From Deltaproteobacteria bacterium (GTDB lineage Bacteria; Desulfobacterota; Binatia; UBA12015): a stretch of DNA of 46,421 nt. The notes under the pieces were generated by a model that saw nothing but the letters and a program-made list of their open reading frames with translations, did not search any database and was not told the origin of the DNA. Positions 27,735 through 38,672 of the stretch are shown in pieces. A program made the translations under genes and the position numbers. Every line of letters starts with the position of its first letter. Position 1 is the stretch's first letter. The stretch lies in NCBI GenBank assembly GCA_016874795.1, contig VGTG01000031.1:1-46421 (forward strand), written 5' to 3'.

Positions 27735-28199
27735 ATGGCACAGCAACCCTTCGACCCGTCCCGCTACCGCTGGCGTGAGGTGACCGATCCCGCGGCACCC
27801 TACAAGATCCGCCACGACTACACGATCCTCGGCCACGACGTCGGCGCGGGCACGCTCGACATGCTGGTGCGCTGGTCGAACGACGGCGGTCACTGCCCGA
27901 TCCACCGCCACGTCGGCACCACGACCATTCTCGTGCTCGCGGGCGAGCAGCATCTGTGGGATCTCGGCCCGGGCGGGGCGCGGCTGCGCCACCGCATCCG
28001 TCGCGCCGGCGACTACGGTCTCACGCGCGCCGAAGCCGAGCCGCACCTCGAGAACGGCGGGCCGACCGGCGGCCTCGTGTTCTTCGGCAACCATTCGAGC
28101 GACGGCGTGCTGTACGAGTTCTTCGACTCGGAGCTGAACCTCGTCGGCAAGGTGACGATCGCGGAGCTGGTCGACGACTGGGAGGCGAACGCCGCATGA
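27735..28199 (+). CDS. Cupin-domain protein
   Basis: A 154-residue protein with a single cupin barrel. The metal-site motif is visible as HCPIHRHVGTTTILVLAGEQHLWD (residues about 55-78), and a second beta motif includes GLVFFGNHSSDG. Related cupins are quercetinase-like or accessory proteins of ring-cleavage clusters; the activity is not predictable here. AAGGAG precedes the ATG at 27735. The stop overlaps the ATG of the long CoA-transferase. No lactone hydrolase is otherwise visible in the cluster, so a role in product handling is possible but unproven. Confidence 0.7.
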   Translation: MAQQPFDPSRYRWREVTDPAAPYKIRHDYTILGHDVGAGTLDMLVRWSNDGGHCPIHRHVGTTTILVLAGEQHLWDLGPGGARLRHRIRRAGDYGLTRAEAEPHLENGGPTGGLVFFGNHSSDGVLYEFFDSELNLVGKVTIAELVDDWEANAA

Positions 28200-30583
28200 C
28201 GCAGGGCCTCGCCGGGATCCGCGTGCTCGAGCTCGCGGACCAGATCGCCGGGCCCTACTGCGGCAAGCTCCTGGTCGACGGGGGCGCGGACGTCGTCAAG
28301 GTCGAGCCGGGCGGCGGCGACTCGCTGCGCGTGTCGGGCTCGCTCTTCGCGTATCTGAACGCGGGCAAGCGCTCGGTGACCGGGGAGATCGGCGACGCGC
28401 ACGTCGACGCACTGGTCGCGGAGGCGGACCTCGTGATCGCGGCGCACGGGCTCGAGACCGACGCGCCGCCGCGCGTCGACGTGGCCGCGCTGCGCGCGCG
28501 GCATCCGTCGCTCGTGGTCGCGACCATCACGCCGTACGGCACGAGCGGCCCGTGGCGCGGCCGCCGAGCGACCGAGTTCACGCTGCAGGCGGAGTCGGGA
28601 TCGCTCGGCATGCGCGGCGTGATGGGGCGCGAGCCGTTCCAGGCGGGTGGGCGCGTCGCAGAGTGGGGCGCCGGCGTCTATGCGGCAGCCGGATCGCTGC
28701 CTGCCGTGCTGCGTGCACGAGCGGGCGGTAGCGGAGAGCACGTCGACGTCTCGATGCTCGAGGTATCGAACTTCGTCTTCACGAACTTCTCCGAGACGAT
28801 GAACCGGCTGATGAACGGCAGCGCTGGGGAGCCGCAGCACGCGTTCCTCGCGCCGACGGTCGAGACGCCGTCGATCGAGCCGGCCGCGGACGGCTACGTC
28901 GGTTTCTGCACCAACGCGAAGCAGCAGTTCCTCGACTTCCTGCTGCTGATCGAGCGCCCCGACCTGCAGGAGGACGAGGTGCTCGGGCAGTTCGCCGGGC
29001 GGATCATGCGCTTCGACGAGTGGAACGGGATCATGCGCGCCTGGCTCGCGGACAAGGCCGCGGCCGAGGTCATCGAGCGCGCGTCGGCGCTGCGCATCCC
29101 GGTCGCCCCGGTGGGCAACGGCCGGACCGTCCTCGAGCACGAGCAGCTCGCCGCGCGCCGGGTGTTCGTCCCGGACGCGGCCGGACGCTTTCGGCAGCCG
29201 CGACGCTCGTACCGCATCGACGAAGCGGACCCGCCGCCACCCGCGCCCGTCCCCGCGCTCGGCGAGCACGCGACCGCGGCGTCGTTTCCGTCCCGGATCG
29301 CGACCGTGGAGCCGCCCGTGGCGCCGGGCGCGCTGCCGCTCGCCGGGCTCCGCGTGCTCGACCTAACCGCGTGGTGGGCCGGTCCCGCCGCTTCGCACCT
29401 GCTCGGCTGTCTCGGCGCCGAGGTGATCCATGTCGAGTCCACCGGACACCCCGACGGAGTTCGCATGATCGGCGGGATGATGGCGGCGCACTACGCCGAC
29501 TGGTGGGAAGCCGCGCCGCACTTCCTGCAGACCAACGCGAACAAGCTCGGCGTCACGATCGATCTCGCGAAGCCGCGCGGCCGGTCGCTGGTGGAGGACC
29601 TGATCCGTCGTTGCGACGCGGTGTTCGAGAACTTCACGCCGCGCGTGCTCGACGGCTTCGGCCTCGGCTGGACGCGCGTGCGCGAGCTGAACCCGCGCGC
29701 GTTTCTGGTGCGCATGCCGGCCTTCGGGCTGGACGGTCCCTGGCGGGACCACACCGGCTTCGCGCAGACCATGGAGCAGATGTCCGGGCTCGCGTGGGTG
29801 ACCGGGCACCGCGACGACCAGCCGCGCATCCCGCGCGGTCCGTGCGATCCGCTCGCCGGCATGCACGCGGCATTCGCCTTCCTCGTCGCGTGGCGCGCGG
29901 CCGCGAGCGACGGCCGCGGCCGCCACGTCGAGAGCACGATGGTCGAGAGTGCGCTCGCCGTGGCGGCGGAGCAGGTCGTCGAGTGGACCGCGCGGGGGGT
30001 GCTGCTGGAGCGCGACGGCAACCGCTCGGCGCTCGCGGCCCCGCAGGGCTTGTATCTGTGCGCGGAGGGGCAGACGGGCGAGTCGGGGCTCGACGGCTGG
30101 CTCGCGCTGTCGGTCGCGAGCGACGCAGAGTGGCGTGCGTTGCGCGCCGTGCTCGGCGATCCGGCGTGGGCGCGCTATCCCGGTCTGGACACATTGGCGG
30201 GCCGCCGGGCGTCGCACGATGCGATCGACGCGCAGCTTCGCGCGTGGACCGCGACACGCGAGCGCGCAGCGCTGGTCGCGGAGCTGCGCGCGCACGGCAT
30301 CCCCGCGTCCGAGGTCGCCAACCCGTGCCGGCTCGCGCAGTCGAACCCGCAGCTGCAGTCTCGTCGCTACTTCGAGACACCCGTACACCCGGTCGTGGGC
30401 GCGATGCCCATACCGGGTCTGCCGTTTCGCAGCGAGCACGTCGCGCGCTGGGTCCGCACACCGGCGCCGACCATCGGCGAGCACAACGCGCGCGTGCTCG
30501 GCGGACTGCTCGGGCTCGATGCGGACGAGCTACGCGCGCTCGAGGCGGAGGGCGTGATCGGAAGCCGGCCGCGCGGACTCTGA
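28196..30583 (+). CDS. Double-length CaiB/BaiF CoA-transferase (two fused domains)
   Basis: A 795-residue protein made of two successive family III CoA-transferase units. Unit 1 starts GIRVLELADQIAGPYCGKLLVDGGADVVKVEP, and unit 2 starts near residue 382 with GLRVLDLTAWWAGPAASHLLGCLGAEVIHVES. Unit 1 looks abbreviated in its usual active-site region, whereas unit 2 retains VTIDLAKPRGRSLVEDLI, VFENFTPRVLDGFG and the GPWRDHTGFAQTMEQ segment with the expected Asp. Family III enzymes are normally interlocked dimers, so the fusion may supply both halves in one chain. The start overlaps the cupin stop (ATGA). It probably activates an acid released after ring opening. Confidence 0.82.
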   Translation: MTQGLAGIRVLELADQIAGPYCGKLLVDGGADVVKVEPGGGDSLRVSGSLFAYLNAGKRSVTGEIGDAHVDALVAEADLVIAAHGLETDAPPRVDVAALRARHPSLVVATITPYGTSGPWRGRRATEFTLQAESGSLGMRGVMGREPFQAGGRVAEWGAGVYAAAGSLPAVLRARAGGSGEHVDVSMLEVSNFVFTNFSETMNRLMNGSAGEPQHAFLAPTVETPSIEPAADGYVGFCTNAKQQFLDFLLLIERPDLQEDEVLGQFAGRIMRFDEWNGIMRAWLADKAAAEVIERASALRIPVAPVGNGRTVLEHEQLAARRVFVPDAAGRFRQPRRSYRIDEADPPPPAPVPALGEHATAASFPSRIATVEPPVAPGALPLAGLRVLDLTAWWAGPAASHLLGCLGAEVIHVESTGHPDGVRMIGGMMAAHYADWWEAAPHFLQTNANKLGVTIDLAKPRGRSLVEDLIRRCDAVFENFTPRVLDGFGLGWTRVRELNPRAFLVRMPAFGLDGPWRDHTGFAQTMEQMSGLAWVTGHRDDQPRIPRGPCDPLAGMHAAFAFLVAWRAAASDGRGRHVESTMVESALAVAAEQVVEWTARGVLLERDGNRSALAAPQGLYLCAEGQTGESGLDGWLALSVASDAEWRALRAVLGDPAWARYPGLDTLAGRRASHDAIDAQLRAWTATRERAALVAELRAHGIPASEVANPCRLAQSNPQLQSRRYFETPVHPVVGAMPIPGLPFRSEHVARWVRTPAPTIGEHNARVLGGLLGLDADELRALEAEGVIGSRPRGL

Positions 30584-32427: not shown

Positions 32428-33867
32428 ATGCGTTTCGTCGTGATCGGCGCCGGCATGTCCGGCATCCTCGCCGCGATCCGGCTGCGCGAAGCCGGCTACG
32501 ACGACGTCGTCGTCTACGAGAAGGCCGATCGTCCGGGCGGGACGTGGCGCGAGAATACCTACCCGGGGCTGTCGTGCGACGTGCCCTCACACTTCTACAG
32601 CTACTCGTTCGCGCTCAATCCGGACTGGAGCCGGCGGTACTCGCCGGGTGCCGAGATCCAGGCGTACTTCACCGGCGTCGCGAAGCGCTACGGCGTGACC
32701 GATCGCACGCGCTTCGGGAAGGAGATCGTGCGCTGCGCCTTCGAGGACGGGCGCTGGCACCTCACGGCGAACGACGGTGCGACCGACGTCGCCGACGTCG
32801 TGATCGCCGCGACCGGGGTCCTGCACCACCCGAAGATGCCGGAGATCGAGGGCCTCGAGACGTTTGCCGGCGCTGCCTTCCACAGCGCGCGCTGGGACCA
32901 CTCCGTGCCGATCGACGGCCGCCGCGTCGGCGTGGTCGGCACGGGCTCGTCGGCGGTGCAGATCGTGACCGCGATCACCGATCGGGTCGGCCAGCTGGTG
33001 CTCTTCCAGCGCACCCCGCAGTGGATCATGCCGGCGCAGAATCCCGCCTACGGCGACGAGGAGAAGGCGAGCTTCCGCGCGCACCCGGAGGCGATGGAGG
33101 AGATCCGCCGCGCGACGGCGCAGCAGTTCTGCGACGGGTTCGCCAACATCGTCGGCGAAACCGACTCTCCGATCCTGCAGGCGATGCACGACATGTGCGT
33201 GGCGCACCTCGAGTCGAGCGTGCACGACCCGGAGCTCCGCGAGAAGCTCCGGCCGAGCTATCGCGCCGCGTGCAAGCGCCTGGTGATCGCGGACGGATTC
33301 TACGAGGCGATCCAGCGCCCGAACGCGCGCCTCGTGACCGACGGCGTCGCGCGCGTCGAGCCCGCAGGCGTGCGCACGAAGGACGGCACGCTGTACCCGC
33401 TCGACGTGCTGGTGCTCGCGACCGGCTTCCAGGTCGACTGGTTCGTGCGGCCCATGCAGGTCACGGGCCGGGGCGGCGTCCGGCTCGACGACCTCTGGGC
33501 GCACGGCGCGACCGCGTACCTGTCGATGACCGTGCCCGGCTTCCCGAACTTCTTCATGCTGAACGGGCCGAACGGACCGGTCGGCAACTTCTCGCTGATC
33601 GAGGTCGCCGAGCTGCAGTTCGACTACGTGCTGAAGCTCGTCGACGAGCTGCGCCGCGGCGCGTGCCGCGAGCTGGCCCCTTCGGCCGAGGCGATGGCGC
33701 GCTTCGACGCCGAGCGACGCGAGGCCGCGAAGAAGACCATCTGGAACACGGGCTGCCGGAGCTGGTACCTGGACGAGACTGGACTCCCGACGGCATGGCC
33801 GTTCACCTTCGACCGCTTTCGCAACGAGATGGCCGCGCCGCGGCTCGAGGACTACGAGCGGCGGTGA
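32428..33867 (+). CDS. Flavin monooxygenase, Baeyer-Villiger type
   Basis: A 479-residue FAD/NADPH monooxygenase. It has an N-terminal FAD motif IGAGMSGILAAIRL, PGGTWRENTYPGLSCDVPSH, the BVMO-type fingerprint FAGAAFHSARWDH near residue 150, and a second nucleotide motif VGTGSSAVQIV near 172. It lacks the N-terminal extension of the other BVMO in the cluster and is only distantly similar to it, so the two probably act at different steps or on different ketones. An AGGGGGAGAG site precedes the ATG. It is the last gene of the co-directional cluster; an 8-bp hairpin begins right after its stop. Confidence 0.87.
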   Translation: MRFVVIGAGMSGILAAIRLREAGYDDVVVYEKADRPGGTWRENTYPGLSCDVPSHFYSYSFALNPDWSRRYSPGAEIQAYFTGVAKRYGVTDRTRFGKEIVRCAFEDGRWHLTANDGATDVADVVIAATGVLHHPKMPEIEGLETFAGAAFHSARWDHSVPIDGRRVGVVGTGSSAVQIVTAITDRVGQLVLFQRTPQWIMPAQNPAYGDEEKASFRAHPEAMEEIRRATAQQFCDGFANIVGETDSPILQAMHDMCVAHLESSVHDPELREKLRPSYRAACKRLVIADGFYEAIQRPNARLVTDGVARVEPAGVRTKDGTLYPLDVLVLATGFQVDWFVRPMQVTGRGGVRLDDLWAHGATAYLSMTVPGFPNFFMLNGPNGPVGNFSLIEVAELQFDYVLKLVDELRRGACRELAPSAEAMARFDAERREAAKKTIWNTGCRSWYLDETGLPTAWPFTFDRFRNEMAAPRLEDYERR

Positions 33868-33886: not shown

Positions 33887-34092
33887 GGGCGCTGGCGCTC
33901 GGCGGAGAGCTCGTGGACCTCGCCGCGCCGCTCGGCTTCCCCATGTTCGCCGGTGTGGGGGAGGTTTCTCCGCGGGTGTGCACGCGCCGACGGGGGCCAT
34001 CTCGAGACGGGAATCGCCGAGATGGAGTACGCGCTCGGCGAGCTGGCAAAAGTCGCCGTCGGGATCGGAGCGCCCGGCTTCCTCGTGGTGCT
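33883..34092 (+). pseudogene. TPR-domain fragment, frameshifted relic
   Basis: One frame from 33883 reads ERALALGGELVDLAAPLGFPMFAG. After a +1 shift near 33950 another reads WGRFLRGCARADGGHLETGIAEMEYAL, continuing to GIGAPGFLVVL at about 34092. Placed end to end these match the usual C-terminal TPR wording of bacterial adenylate/guanylate cyclase-AAA-TPR proteins (GFP...WGR.LRG...GIA.M..GL...G...G.P.FL.LL) as I remember them. There is no start, and the end abuts the convergent creatininase-family gene, so this is a decayed fragment. The 223-bp gap holds nothing else. Confidence 0.45.
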
Positions 34093-35095
34093 AGGAGTAG
34101 ATCCCGTCGGGGATGCGCAGCACGCGATTGAAGAACCGCACCATCAGCGGATGCGTGAAGAGGAACCGCTTCGACCAGAGCGGCGAATGCCACTGGTCGG
34201 GCGGCAGCTTCCCGTCGAGAATCTCCGCGACCGCGGTCGCACCGTGGCGCGAGAGCGTGTCGAGAATGCGCTCACCGAGCTCGGGCGAGGCGGCGCCGGG
34301 CGCGCCCGCGTACGTCTCGGCGCGGAAGAAGCGCAGCGCCGCCTGGAACGCCTTGACCATCGCGAGCACGCCTGCGGGCTTGCCGCGCTCGATCGCGGGA
34401 GGCTTCTCGCCGCGCTCTCCGAGCCAGATGTCGACGGTGCGGCGCGGCAGCCCGGCGTAGTCGCGCTCGATCCACTCCGGGTGGAGCGCGAGGAGCTGCG
34501 AGGTCTCGACGAGGCCGCCGTGCGTGTCGCCTCGGAGGTTCTCGCGCTCGACGCCCGGCAGATCGCCCAACGTCTCGTAGAGCTCCGAGCCCCCGCCCGT
34601 GAGCCGGCTCACGAGGACCGAAAACACGCACACCATGCGGATGCCGCGCTCGCGCGTGACGCGGTCGCAGGCCTTCTCGATCGCGAGGAAGTGGCGCGGG
34701 CTTCCATGGAAGTTCGACACGAGCACGTTGCGAAAGCCCTGCGCCGCGAGCGAGCGCCCGAGATCCGTGAGGACCGCGACGGTCGTCTGCGGCTGGAAGA
34801 AGAGCGAGCCCGCGTGCGGCAGCGTGTCGGTCGCCGCGTACACGTAGGGCAGCTCGAGGAACGTTCGCTTCCGATGCCGCTCCGGAAGGTGCGGGAGCAT
34901 GCGCCGCAGGAGACCTTGTCCCTGCAGCGCGTCGGCGCCGAGCGGAAGGTGCGGGCCGTGCACCTCGAGCGGCGAGCACGTGACGAGGACGACGGTCTCC
35001 GCGCGATCGAGCTCGTCGAAGCGCCGCTTCGTCAACATCTCCCAGCGGAGGAGGGTCGGGCCGGCTTCTTCCTCGGACATCGGTCGGTCGGACAT
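34091..35095 (-). CDS. Creatininase-family amidohydrolase
   Basis: A 334-residue member of the creatininase superfamily of metal-dependent amide hydrolases (creatininase, MftE, FAPy deformylase). The metal-binding motif SPLEVHGPHLPLGAD near residue 42 keeps Glu, His and Asp; NFHGSPRHFLAIEKA and GDTHGGLVETS provide the remaining ligands, with HGS in place of the usual HGG(N). I chose the ATG at 35095 (MSDRPMSEEE); 35080 is an alternative and no strong ribosome site separates them. An intrinsic terminator lies just upstream on the same strand, so the gene needs its own promoter or is controlled by readthrough. Confidence 0.75.
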   Translation of the reverse strand: MSDRPMSEEEAGPTLLRWEMLTKRRFDELDRAETVVLVTCSPLEVHGPHLPLGADALQGQGLLRRMLPHLPERHRKRTFLELPYVYAATDTLPHAGSLFFQPQTTVAVLTDLGRSLAAQGFRNVLVSNFHGSPRHFLAIEKACDRVTRERGIRMVCVFSVLVSRLTGGGSELYETLGDLPGVERENLRGDTHGGLVETSQLLALHPEWIERDYAGLPRRTVDIWLGERGEKPPAIERGKPAGVLAMVKAFQAALRFFRAETYAGAPGAASPELGERILDTLSRHGATAVAEILDGKLPPDQWHSPLWSKRFLFTHPLMVRFFNRVLRIPDGIYS

Positions 35096-35126
35096 CGCTC
35101 GCGCTCGTACCATCCGCGCTGCGCGC

Positions 35127-35168
35127 AAAAAAGAAGCCCGAGGGACCCTAGCGGGCCTCTCGGGCTTC
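35127..35168 (-). terminator. Intrinsic terminator (minus strand)
   Basis: A 10-bp perfect stem, GAAGCCCGAG (35133-35142) with CTCGGGCTTC (35159-35168), has further GC pairing inside the loop and six A on the plus strand at 35127-35132. Read on the minus strand this is a GC-rich hairpin followed by six U. It terminates leftward transcription coming from the structured segment and the amidohydrolases, just before the creatininase-family gene. Confidence 0.88.
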
Positions 35169-35172
35169 CGGT

Positions 35173-35475
35173 GGCACGACCTACGTCGCGCCGTCCCAGC
35201 TTAGAACCGGGAACGATTCAAACTCGGCGATGGTTTCGCCGAGTCGGTTGTTCCGGCGCCGCCGTCGCATCGCCTGTCGACGGCGCCCTTACTGGCCCGG
35301 TGGCGTCTCCATTCGGTCCTCCGGTTTGCTGCTCCGGCCTTGCTGCCCGCCGACTCCACGCTGGAGCGGGCGACCAGTTCCCTGTGGGACGATTTCCGTT
35401 CTCCTTTGCTGCTTCGAGCATGCGCCTCTTCGCCGGGCTCTGTCAATGCCGGAGTACGACGCGGATCGACCGTCG
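35173..35475 (-). ncRNA. Candidate structured RNA between amidohydrolase and terminator
   Basis: This roughly 300-bp stretch has no convincing gene but contains a row of strong stems. They are 35173-35180/35185-35192; 35222-35230/35236-35244 (9 bp, loop TGGTT); 35260-35267/35278-35285; and a nested stem over 35345-35371. Around the 9-bp stem, GGAAC (35210) pairs with GTTCC (35250) and AACCG (35205) pairs with CGGTT (35245), a crossing arrangement that implies a pseudoknot or switch. The first stem has an A-C mismatch on the plus strand but G-U on the minus strand, and minus-strand loops are purine-rich, so the RNA reads leftward into the terminator. It matches no RNA family I know. Confidence 0.45.
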
Positions 35476-36606
35476 TCAGGCCATCAAGCCCCAGAACTGC
35501 GCGGCGTTCGTGCACACGATCTTGTTGCGCTCCTCCGCCGGAACGTCGGAGAGCATCTCGTCGATCGTCTTCCGCGAGTACGGCCAGTCGTTCCCGTGGT
35601 GCGGGAAGTCGGTCGACCACGCGATGTTGTCGATGCCGATCTGGTGGCGAACGCTGATGCCGCTCCGATCGACGATGAACGTCGCGAGCCAGTGGTCGCG
35701 GAAGTAGTCGCTCGGGACCTTTTTAAGCTTGACGCCTGCCCAGTGGCGATTCCGCCAGTAGCGGTCGTCCGTCATCTCGAGGAAGTGCGGGATCCAGCCG
35801 ATGCCGATCTCGACGCCGGCCATGCGAAGCTTCGGGAACCGGTCGAAGACGCCCTGGAAGATCATCTCCGTGATGAGCGGCATCGTGTAGGAGAAGGCCG
35901 TCGCGCCGATCGCGACCGCGGCCGACTTCGACGGCACGATCTTCGTCGTGCTCGCCGCGAGGAGCAGATGGATGCTCACCGGCATGTCGAGCTGCGCGGC
36001 GGTGTCCCAGAACGGATCGTCCGCGGCCGAGAGGTTGTCGCCGCCCGAAGGCCAAGCCGAGATCGCGACGCCGCGAAAGCCTTCCTTCTTCGCGCGCTGC
36101 AGCTCGGAGACGGACGTCTCGATGCCGACGTTCGGCATCTGAAAGATGCCGATCAGACGGTCGGGATCGGGCGCGCAGAAGCCGTCCTTCAGCCAGCGAT
36201 TGTACGCGCGGATGCCGGCGAGGTGCGCTTCCGTGTCCTTGTTCTTCATGAACGTCAGCATCGCGCGCTGCGGCGGGTAGAGCATCTCCGCGTCGACGCC
36301 GTCCTCGTCCATGATCTTCAGGCGCTCGGCGCCGTCGTGACACGAAGGGTGGATGTCGCGGCCGTACTTCTTGCCGGTCCACTTGAGCTCTTCCGGACGC
36401 GTGCCGACGCAGGTGACGAGGCCGAGCGGCTCGGCCGTCGCGGCGCCCATGTAGACCCACGCGTCGCCGCCTTCGCCGTCGTCGACGAGCTTCGGCGCGG
36501 TGTCGATGTACTTCTTCTCGAGCCACTTGTCCCAGAGATCGGGCGGCTCGACGGTGTGCGAGTCGGCGGAGATGATGCGGTACTCGCGTTTCGTCGTGGA
36601 CTTCAT
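35476..36606 (-). CDS. Amidohydrolase-2 family metal hydrolase/decarboxylase
   Basis: A 376-residue TIM-barrel amidohydrolase of the aminocarboxymuconate-semialdehyde decarboxylase-like type. The N-terminal metal motif is the degenerate SADSHTVEPPDLW. It is followed by DEDGVDAEMLYPP, HLLLAAST and, near the C-terminus, STDFPHHGNDWPYSRK with the conserved Asp/His. It is preceded by AGGAGTCAGC before the ATG at 36604-36606; longer open sequence upstream lacks family features. It is a paralogue of the gene 25 bp upstream and shares its operon. Substrates of this group are often aromatic-ring fragments or lactone-like acids; none can be assigned. Confidence 0.85.
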   Translation of the reverse strand: MKSTTKREYRIISADSHTVEPPDLWDKWLEKKYIDTAPKLVDDGEGGDAWVYMGAATAEPLGLVTCVGTRPEELKWTGKKYGRDIHPSCHDGAERLKIMDEDGVDAEMLYPPQRAMLTFMKNKDTEAHLAGIRAYNRWLKDGFCAPDPDRLIGIFQMPNVGIETSVSELQRAKKEGFRGVAISAWPSGGDNLSAADDPFWDTAAQLDMPVSIHLLLAASTTKIVPSKSAAVAIGATAFSYTMPLITEMIFQGVFDRFPKLRMAGVEIGIGWIPHFLEMTDDRYWRNRHWAGVKLKKVPSDYFRDHWLATFIVDRSGISVRHQIGIDNIAWSTDFPHHGNDWPYSRKTIDEMLSDVPAEERNKIVCTNAAQFWGLMA

Positions 36607-37853: not shown

Positions 37854-38672
37854 ATGGCGCGCAAGCCCCTCGAGCCTCCTCCCGTCGCAGCGCTCGCTGC
37901 AGCGCCGGTACGCGTGCCGAAGGCGGCGCAGCTCATCGCGAACTCGATCCGGGAGCAAATCGCGAGCGGCGCTCTCAGCGCCGGGAGCCCGCTTCCGAAC
38001 GAGACGGACCTGATGGCGCACTTCGCGGTCGCGCGTCCCACCGCTCGCGAGGCGCTCCGCATCCTCGAAGCGGAAGGTTTGCTCGAGATCGTGCGTGGCG
38101 CCCACGGCGGCGCACGCGTCCGCACGCCGGACGTCGGTGCGGCGGCGCGTCACTGTGCCGTTCTCTTGCAGCTCCAGGGTACCACGGCGGCGGAGGTCTA
38201 CGAGGTGCGCCTGATGCTCGAGCCGACCGCCGCGCGGCTCGCCGCGGAGCGCGCGCCGCGTGAAGCGGCGGACATCCTCGATGCGTTGATCGCCGAGGAG
38301 GAGCGCGCCGTCGAGGAGACGACCTCGCTCGCTTCGCTGACGATCCGGTTCCAGGAGACTCTCGTCGACGTCGCGGGGAACCCGACGCTCGCGCTCCTCG
38401 TGCGGCTCCTGCACGACCTCGCTTCGCGTCAGACCTCGGCGCGAATTCGTCCCGACCTCGACGAGGCGACGCGCATCCGACTGCGCAGACGCCTGATCCG
38501 AGCGCAACGCGCGGTCGTCGCGGCGATCCGCGAGGGACGCGGTGAGGACGCGGAATCGGAGTGGCGCCGCTTTCTATCGGGCGTCCGCGACGAGCTTCTC
38601 GGGGGCCGGGACTCCCGCGTCGGGCTCGCGCCGCGCGAGCCACGCAGCTCCACGCGCCGCGGCGTCGGCTGA
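37854..38672 (+). CDS. GntR-family regulator with FCD domain
   Basis: A 272-residue regulator. The winged helix spans about residues 25-90: QLIANSIREQIASGALSAGSPLPNETDLMAHFAVARPTAREALRILEAEGLLEI. The helical FCD effector domain follows (YEVRLMLEPTAARLAAERA), with Arg/Glu/His positions expected for a metal-linked small-acid pocket only partly visible. FCD regulators usually sense an acid or CoA ester from the pathway they control, here most likely the adjacent divergent amidohydrolases. The start at 37854 lies 13 bp after the second dyad, consistent with autoregulation. Confidence 0.87.
   Translation: MARKPLEPPPVAALAAAPVRVPKAAQLIANSIREQIASGALSAGSPLPNETDLMAHFAVARPTAREALRILEAEGLLEIVRGAHGGARVRTPDVGAAARHCAVLLQLQGTTAAEVYEVRLMLEPTAARLAAERAPREAADILDALIAEEERAVEETTSLASLTIRFQETLVDVAGNPTLALLVRLLHDLASRQTSARIRPDLDEATRIRLRRRLIRAQRAVVAAIREGRGEDAESEWRRFLSGVRDELLGGRDSRVGLAPREPRSSTRRGVG

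Follow-up and report, generated by a model that had tools for sequence, protein, structure and literature searches.

Among the described systems closest to the locus analyzed here is SgrS/SgrT, a dual-function small RNA. According to the account in PMC8672173, trans base-pairing is established for dual-function small RNAs, and VcdP, the protein of the dual-function VcdRP, is 29 aa long. The MgtL leader of mgtA represents a second type of system; as described in PMC11282234, early acidic residues and proline in MgtL-type ORFs destabilize or pause ribosomes, an effect which EttA counters, and the progress of the ribosome decides the fold of the RNA. PMC5021804 further describes how EF-P relieves PPG stalls and how polyproline stalls affect intrinsic termination in reporters, in which the loss of EF-P alters termination downstream of polyproline motifs.

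From our analysis of the window (the whole stretch of DNA examined, 46,421 nt), we found a unit on the minus strand running from a TTGACA element at 35446 down to 35127 which we hold, with high confidence, to be an independent structured RNA. Like the dual-function small RNAs it would be an independent small transcript holding a small ORF, but the peptides here are of 6-14 aa in 12 of the 13 copies found and structure covers most of the RNA. With MgtL it shares a tiny ORF whose start codon is directly followed by an acidic residue and prolines; however, MgtL lies ahead of mgtA and acts on Rho-dependent termination, whereas this RNA is closed by an intrinsic terminator, carries the motif M[DE]xPP instead of EPDP, and shows the MgtL layout, with a co-directional gene downstream, in 5/13 copies, the next called downstream gene being convergent in another 5/13. 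Its likeness to EF-P/Pro-Pro stalling lies in a PPG motif that comes early in the ORF and ahead of a terminator hairpin, although the EF-P cases are reporters and ordinary genes and here we deal with a dedicated small RNA which has structured RNA between the ORF and the terminator. Comparison of sequences across genomes establishes the structure, the conserved Shine-Dalgarno sequence and mini-ORF, the -35 element, and the varied gene neighbors, while the mechanism and the target of the RNA are what we infer.

The RNA is absent from Rfam 15 and from the literature searched, three mini-ORF peptide strings included. The Rfam scan suggested by an earlier sequence-only reading of this DNA returned no family at gathering score anywhere in the window, nor did the 12 other loci. 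Four sub-threshold Rfam matches around the RNA in the window were chance-like. At E ≤ 1, three relatives (L010, L011, L042) had no match and the nine other loci had four sub-threshold matches, none of them a riboswitch; the best covered only parts of the RNA (ar14, 24.8 bits against a threshold of 58.8, in G068; ctRNA_p42d, 24.2 against 50, in G061). The features of the unit and its flanks are as follows.

34091-35095, minus strand: creatininase-family gene, downstream neighbor (PF02633, E 6.4e-34 for 34091-35092)
35127-35409, minus strand: predicted transcript of ~283 nt, its start placed from promoter spacing
35127-35168, minus strand: intrinsic terminator, hairpin and T-run (helix 8; 97.7% of cells paired, two-sided change at 8/10 pairs)
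35173-35192, minus strand: hairpin H4 (helix 7; 90.9% paired, two-sided change at 6/7 pairs)
35194-35212, minus strand: hairpin H3 (helix 6; 96.1% paired, two-sided change at 7/8 pairs)
35222-35244, minus strand: hairpin H2 (helix 5; 89.6% paired, two-sided change at 6/6 pairs, five rows letterless)
35255-35288, minus strand: hairpin H1 (helix 4; 94.4% paired, two-sided change at 6/10 pairs)
35289-35312, minus strand: mini-ORF METPPGQ, stop codon included in the coordinates
35318-35322, minus strand: Shine-Dalgarno sequence GGAGG, 5 nt upstream of the start codon
35343-35377, minus strand: predicted 5' leader hairpin of the minimum-energy fold, outside the covariance model
35417-35422, minus strand: putative -10 element CATGCT, 18-nt spacer, weak sigma-70 match
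35441-35446, minus strand: -35 element TTGACA (TTGACA in 10/13 members, TTGACT in two, TTGCAC in one)
35476-36603, minus strand: amidohydrolase gene, upstream neighbor (PF04909, E 7.2e-29; start chosen by hand)

Distribution and structure of the RNA family

The sequence of the RNA is single-copy in its own genome (G000), short weak matches aside. The corresponding intergenic regions of the three same-genus relatives (G001, G002, and G003, which together with G000 make up genus g1) were recovered via a DNA search over 118 relatives (19 listed, mostly short chance matches) and via protein searches for the creatininase over 14 family genomes and named genome records; a plasmid search gave four short matches. 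The TTGACA element, the hairpins, and the terminator are common to all four genomes, and a block shared by G001-G003 (AGGAGGATTTCTAGGATGGA) is altered in the window around a retained GGAGG and ATGGA. A first covariance model, built from these four copies, recovered full-length copies outside the genus, in further genera and families (G051, E 1.8e-13; G010, 2.0e-11; G006, 2.5e-11; G011, 1.4e-6; G073, 7.2e-6; G068, 8.7e-6; G061, 2.0e-4; G055, 3.6e-4). A second, refined model from ten sequences scored the known copies better and added G031, with E values of 1.1e-12 to 2.9e-45 for 11/13 copies and of 7.5e-8 and 3.5e-7 for the two most distant. The accepted copies are found in 13 of the 148 genomes of the class, one per genome (4/4 in genus g1, 2/2 in g4, 1/2 in g5, 4/4 in g23, and 2/2 in g35).

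The refined model matched 16/148 genomes at E ≤ 0.05, and G092, G093, and G018 (E 0.0026-0.03) were excluded because they are without the mini-ORF and the promoter. A further model search gave extra hits in G004 and G008, along with second hits for G073 (C1) and G031 (C84), all of which were inspected and excluded; its other, uninspected short partial hits are also outside the accepted set. The first model matched 56/148 genomes at E ≤ 1, mostly by uninspected partial hairpin matches, and its weak hits in G118, G137, G024, and G027 were excluded upon inspection. In a phylum sample of 395 genomes, searched with stricter filters, the second model at E ≤ 0.01 matched none beyond G000 and the first model at E ≤ 0.1 gave weak, uninspected matches in seven genomes beyond G000.

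In the alignment of the 13 copies, 90.4% of 653 cells are paired and two-sided changes occur at 41/54 pairs. Compensatory cells number 117 compared to 33.9 (sd 4.7) in shuffled alignments, with 0/500 reaching the observed count, and to 9-31 with partners slid, although the covariance alignment was made to fit the structure, which biases these numbers in its favor, and the model spans the start of the mini-ORF. The ten-sequence alignment had 34 pairs with two-sided change and 71 compensatory cells against 19.9. Covariation is far above both the shuffled and the slid controls, as in a structured RNA family, and this conservation across genomes makes the structured RNA more than a chance occurrence. 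The covariance search, which the sequence-only reading had named as a check, thus brought up relatives with compensatory changes beyond the controls, and its proposal of a new structured RNA that ends in an intrinsic terminator is borne out on the minus strand.

The folding energies agree with this. The minus strand of 35100-35500 folds to -198.2 kcal/mol compared to -173.5 (sd 5.3) in 100 shuffles (z -4.71, 0/100 as good), far better than the shuffles, and contains the several strong stems that had been pointed out. The preference for the minus strand was likewise right; the plus strand reached a z of -3.32 (0/100 as good), and the presumed textbook terminator is a GC-rich hairpin with a T-run ending at 35127. 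The originally proposed extent (35125-35475) is corrected to a unit of 35446-35127 with a predicted transcript of about 35409-35127. By eye, a hairpin near the 5' end folds in several relatives also.

Minimum-energy folds of the 13 predicted transcripts served as an alignment-free check. The terminator retained at least 8/10 pairs in 13/13 folds, H3 at least six pairs in 11/13 (not in G003 and G055), and H4 at least four pairs in 12/13 (not in G055; one fold with 4/7 pairs). H1 retained at least seven pairs in 9/13 folds, missing in G006, G010, G011, and G031, and H2 at least four pairs in 6/13, being absent or different in some relatives. Since they are held in nearly all of these folds, H3, H4, and the terminator are firm predicted elements; the case for H1 leans more heavily on the covariation, and H2 is not found in all members.

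A pseudoknot or two-state switch had been proposed from two crossing helices, GGAAC/GTTCC and AACCG/CGGTT, whose words lie between H1 and H3 in the window. Among the 12 other members all four words occur in G001 alone, where GGAACCG is in the 5' leader, and the longest complement between the leader and H3 (linker-H3 complements were measured as well) was beyond shuffles in 0/13 members, the best being G003 with 38/300 shuffles as long. The crossing helices are not conserved, and neither a conserved pseudoknot nor a conserved switch is supported.

Several further candidates were tried and set aside. A T-arm or tRNA-like reading of H3 was dropped as distant members have other loops, and ARAGORN predicted no tmRNA or tRNA genes in the window. 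A CsrB-like sponge was rejected as the hairpin loops hold no conserved GGA (by eye, in alignment A5). The hairpin of genus g1 that would sequester the Shine-Dalgarno sequence (helix 1) is 75% paired over the 13 copies and absent from most single folds; neither it nor a small hairpin that helices 2 and 3 form around the start codon is claimed.

Promoter and gene neighbors

Each of the 13 copies has the same layout over ~230-310 nt, viz., TTGAC[AT] or TTGCAC, leader, start codon, mini-ORF, hairpins, and terminator. The -35 element, which is outside the covariance model, lies 82-158 nt upstream of the start codon across the 13 members (230 nt scanned); in G068, G031, and G061, which have several TTGAC/TTGCA words, the word at this spacing was chosen. 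Over both strands of the window (2 x 46421 nt) there are three TTGACA words, a rate at which ~0.007 would be expected in 230 nt; in this comparison the related genomes are not independent draws. CATCAT is found at the putative -10 position in the three same-genus relatives; the -10 elements are weak, and a promoter scan of the window listed no sigma-70-type promoter at the RNA. In G003 the RNA would need a promoter of its own because the upstream gene (Pyr_redox_2) is divergent; for the same reason, the RNA there is not readable from an upstream operon.

The genes around the RNA were called as ORFs by length and third-position GC, not with a gene finder. We discounted as spurious the ORFs that overlap the RNA antisense in G006 and G010, together with those in G061 and G055 that coincide with it or directly follow it; the four tested among them, two from G061 and G055, gave no Pfam match. 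In the window, the start of the creatininase gene is not settled among in-frame ATG candidates at 35113, 35095, and 35080. The gene upstream of the RNA is an amidohydrolase in G001 and G002, as in the window. In G003 (L042:1-1371) a divergent pyridine nucleotide-disulphide oxidoreductase replaces the amidohydrolase, and the RNA and the creatininase stay together. The window also carries a cytochrome P450 (31146-32405) and a GntR/FCD regulator (37854-38672), both from Pfam, and genes which resemble a CoA-transferase (27956-30583) and a flavin monooxygenase (32428-33867), named from the translations alone.

With promoter, leader peptide, hairpins, terminator, and gene in succession, the locus has the classical layout of a cis-acting leader or attenuator, in which transcription from TTGACA would usually end at the terminator unless the translated mini-ORF, or some different signal, allowed read-through, which in genus g1 would lead into the creatininase. 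In the window, the end of the terminator is 31 nt from the ATG at 35095 and 13 nt from that at 35113. A co-directional and close downstream gene is present in 5/13 copies, namely the creatininase just downstream of the RNA in all four g1 genomes (G000-G003) and an amidohydrolase in G068. However, the next called downstream gene is convergent in 5/13, i.e., in G006 and G010 (Abhydrolase_10), G051 and G073 (cupin), and G031 (histidine kinase), and three more copies are without a close family-supported gene (a sigma-54-type regulator ~350 nt downstream in G011; small or doubtful ORFs alone close by in G061 and G055). The direction of the RNA also varies with respect to the same neighbor. In genus g23 an Amidohydro_2 gene adjoins the RNA in 4/4 genomes, being divergent in G051, G073, and G031 and co-directional in G068, and a cis leader could not keep its role intact through such a reversal. 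A non-systematic look turned up no conserved antiterminator opposing the terminator stem of 10 bp. We regard a cis-acting leader or attenuator as unlikely. As the downstream gene is convergent in 5/13 copies and the direction relative to the same neighbor varies within a genus, the comparisons argue that the RNA is probably independent and not a creatininase leader in general, although read-through may occur in genus g1. Both options had been raised in the sequence-only reading. Its independent small RNA is favored by the presence of the RNA in other genera beside other genes, by the convergent neighbors, and by the differing directions in g23, and its ligand-responsive attenuator for the creatininase is disfavored as a general role.

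The g23 loci, from different species, differ as if the RNA had been inverted in place, its direction relative to the amidohydrolase in L098, L102, and L125 being opposite to that in L103. Across the RNA from the amidohydrolase, G051, G073, and G068 carry a Suc_Fer-like gene, with the cupin in between in G051 and G073. As a functional hint, the linkage to amidohydrolases is weak: Amidohydro_2 (PF04909) has 35 matches in G000 and 12-44 in each of the eight genomes searched, and adjacency to genes so common in these genomes means little.

The conserved mini-ORF

The region had been described as without coding character, which is wrong in one respect, since a conserved Shine-Dalgarno sequence and a mini-ORF (35312-35289) were missed. 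The start codon is ATG in 12/13 copies and GTG in G011; counting the latter, M[DE]xPP is found in 13/13, with the consensus M[DE][DTE]PP[GRE]. A Shine-Dalgarno-like 4-mer precedes the start in 12/13 members compared to 10% of random positions, the remaining member (G051) having GGGGA. The peptides are METPPGQ (window), MDDPPGQSGRR, MEDPPGTSGRR, MDDPPGQTGRR, MDTPPRSMGRR, MDTPPRSAGRC, (V/M)DDPPGRLRRRS, MDTPPGQLERLSHR, MDDPPGQSQRQPLA, MDTPPEQFQRLLLATTAAGALLPDAFSNRK, MEEPPR, METPPGQIRCRRA, and MDTPPGQNRRRPA, ranging from 6 to 30 aa. The longest belongs to G073 (L102, RNA at oriented 2265-2469), in which the mini-ORF runs through H1.

On alignment columns holding at least nine letters, no 18-column window is as conserved as codons 1-6, whose mean pairwise identity is 0.784 compared to 0.521 for the median window. 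In codons 2-6, the fraction of differing pairs is 0.454 at third positions, 0.185 at first, and 0.138 at second positions (0.388, 0.167, and 0.139 excluding G031); this periodicity has a column-shuffling p of 0.024 in a test that rests on just five codons. Single-step codon differences comprise seven synonymous and seven non-synonymous ones. The pattern of codons 1-7 occurs in 7/148 genomes, always at the RNA loci, and six of the 13 members differ from it; read backwards as a control, it had no match in the 148 genomes. The conserved Shine-Dalgarno sequence, start codon, peptide, and periodicity are good but not final evidence of translation, and on these grounds the mini-ORF is very likely translated. 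Because the mini-ORF is the best-conserved part of the RNA, the alignment suggests that the job of the RNA depends on its being translated.

Conceivably, the unit could be simply a short mRNA whose product is the peptide, with the stems merely protecting and terminating the transcript. Such a reading would suit the start codon and first residues as the best-conserved primary sequence and the third codon positions as the most variable. Against it, the peptides go down to 6-7 aa (MEEPPR, METPPGQ), conservation lies mainly in the first five or six residues with variable C-termini, and H1, H3, and H4 covary strongly, beyond the needs of a passive 3' UTR, all of which makes a mere peptide messenger improbable. 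A metabolite riboswitch, or a control element that binds some other ligand, would account for a compact multi-stem structure that in genus g1 precedes a terminator and then a gene, but it is highly improbable, given that the Rfam scans gave no riboswitch at gathering scores (Guanidine-I in the window, 17.6 bits against a threshold of 63, is chance-like) or among the sub-threshold matches of relatives, that conservation is poor (0.38) at unpaired positions outside the mini-ORF, and that there is no consistent regulated gene.

Ribosome passage as a possible control of the RNA

The reading that we prefer as a whole is a free-standing, translated small RNA in which H1 is gated by ribosomes on the acidic/Pro-Pro mini-ORF, and we give it an even chance of being correct. 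A translated free-standing RNA that answers to the passage of ribosomes is favored because of the MgtL/EttA and PPG/EF-P precedents, which such control of H1 would resemble. The product of a small RNA gene with its own promoter and terminator would take on a fold of H1-H4 and the terminator hairpin. Ribosomes slowed by the early acidic and Pro-Pro codons (Pro-Pro being positions 4-5) would halt short of H1, whereas a ribosome reaching the stop codon, which is inside H1 in 10/13 copies, would open it, and the passage of the ribosome would thereby set the active form or the stability of the RNA. The geometry of ribosome and H1 in this scheme is estimated from ribosome footprints, by which a ribosome paused at Pro-Pro would extend to about the start of H1. 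In three members the stop codon is elsewhere, ahead of H1 in G000 and G031 and beyond it in G073, so the link between ribosome and H1 does not hold for every copy, the window's own being among the exceptions. Gating of H1 by translation is accordingly a tentative proposal, somewhat short of an even chance. That the RNA acts in trans is somewhat more likely than not; no conserved free seed or target was identified for it.

An extended form of the proposal, which we consider speculative and rather unlikely, is that the RNA is a stand-alone sensor of translation, i.e., a leader peptide freed from any gene with the result passed on in trans. The Met-acidic-x-Pro-Pro mini-ORF of such a sensor would read EF-P/EttA-type factors, Mg2+, or the supply of ribosomes through H1.

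The RNA adds a well-supported family from an under-studied bacterial class. It pairs features that are usually separate, namely a leader-peptide-like mini-ORF with an early Pro-Pro and an apparently free-standing, terminated structured RNA. If translation does gate the RNA, these bacteria would have leader-peptide sensing without a downstream gene.
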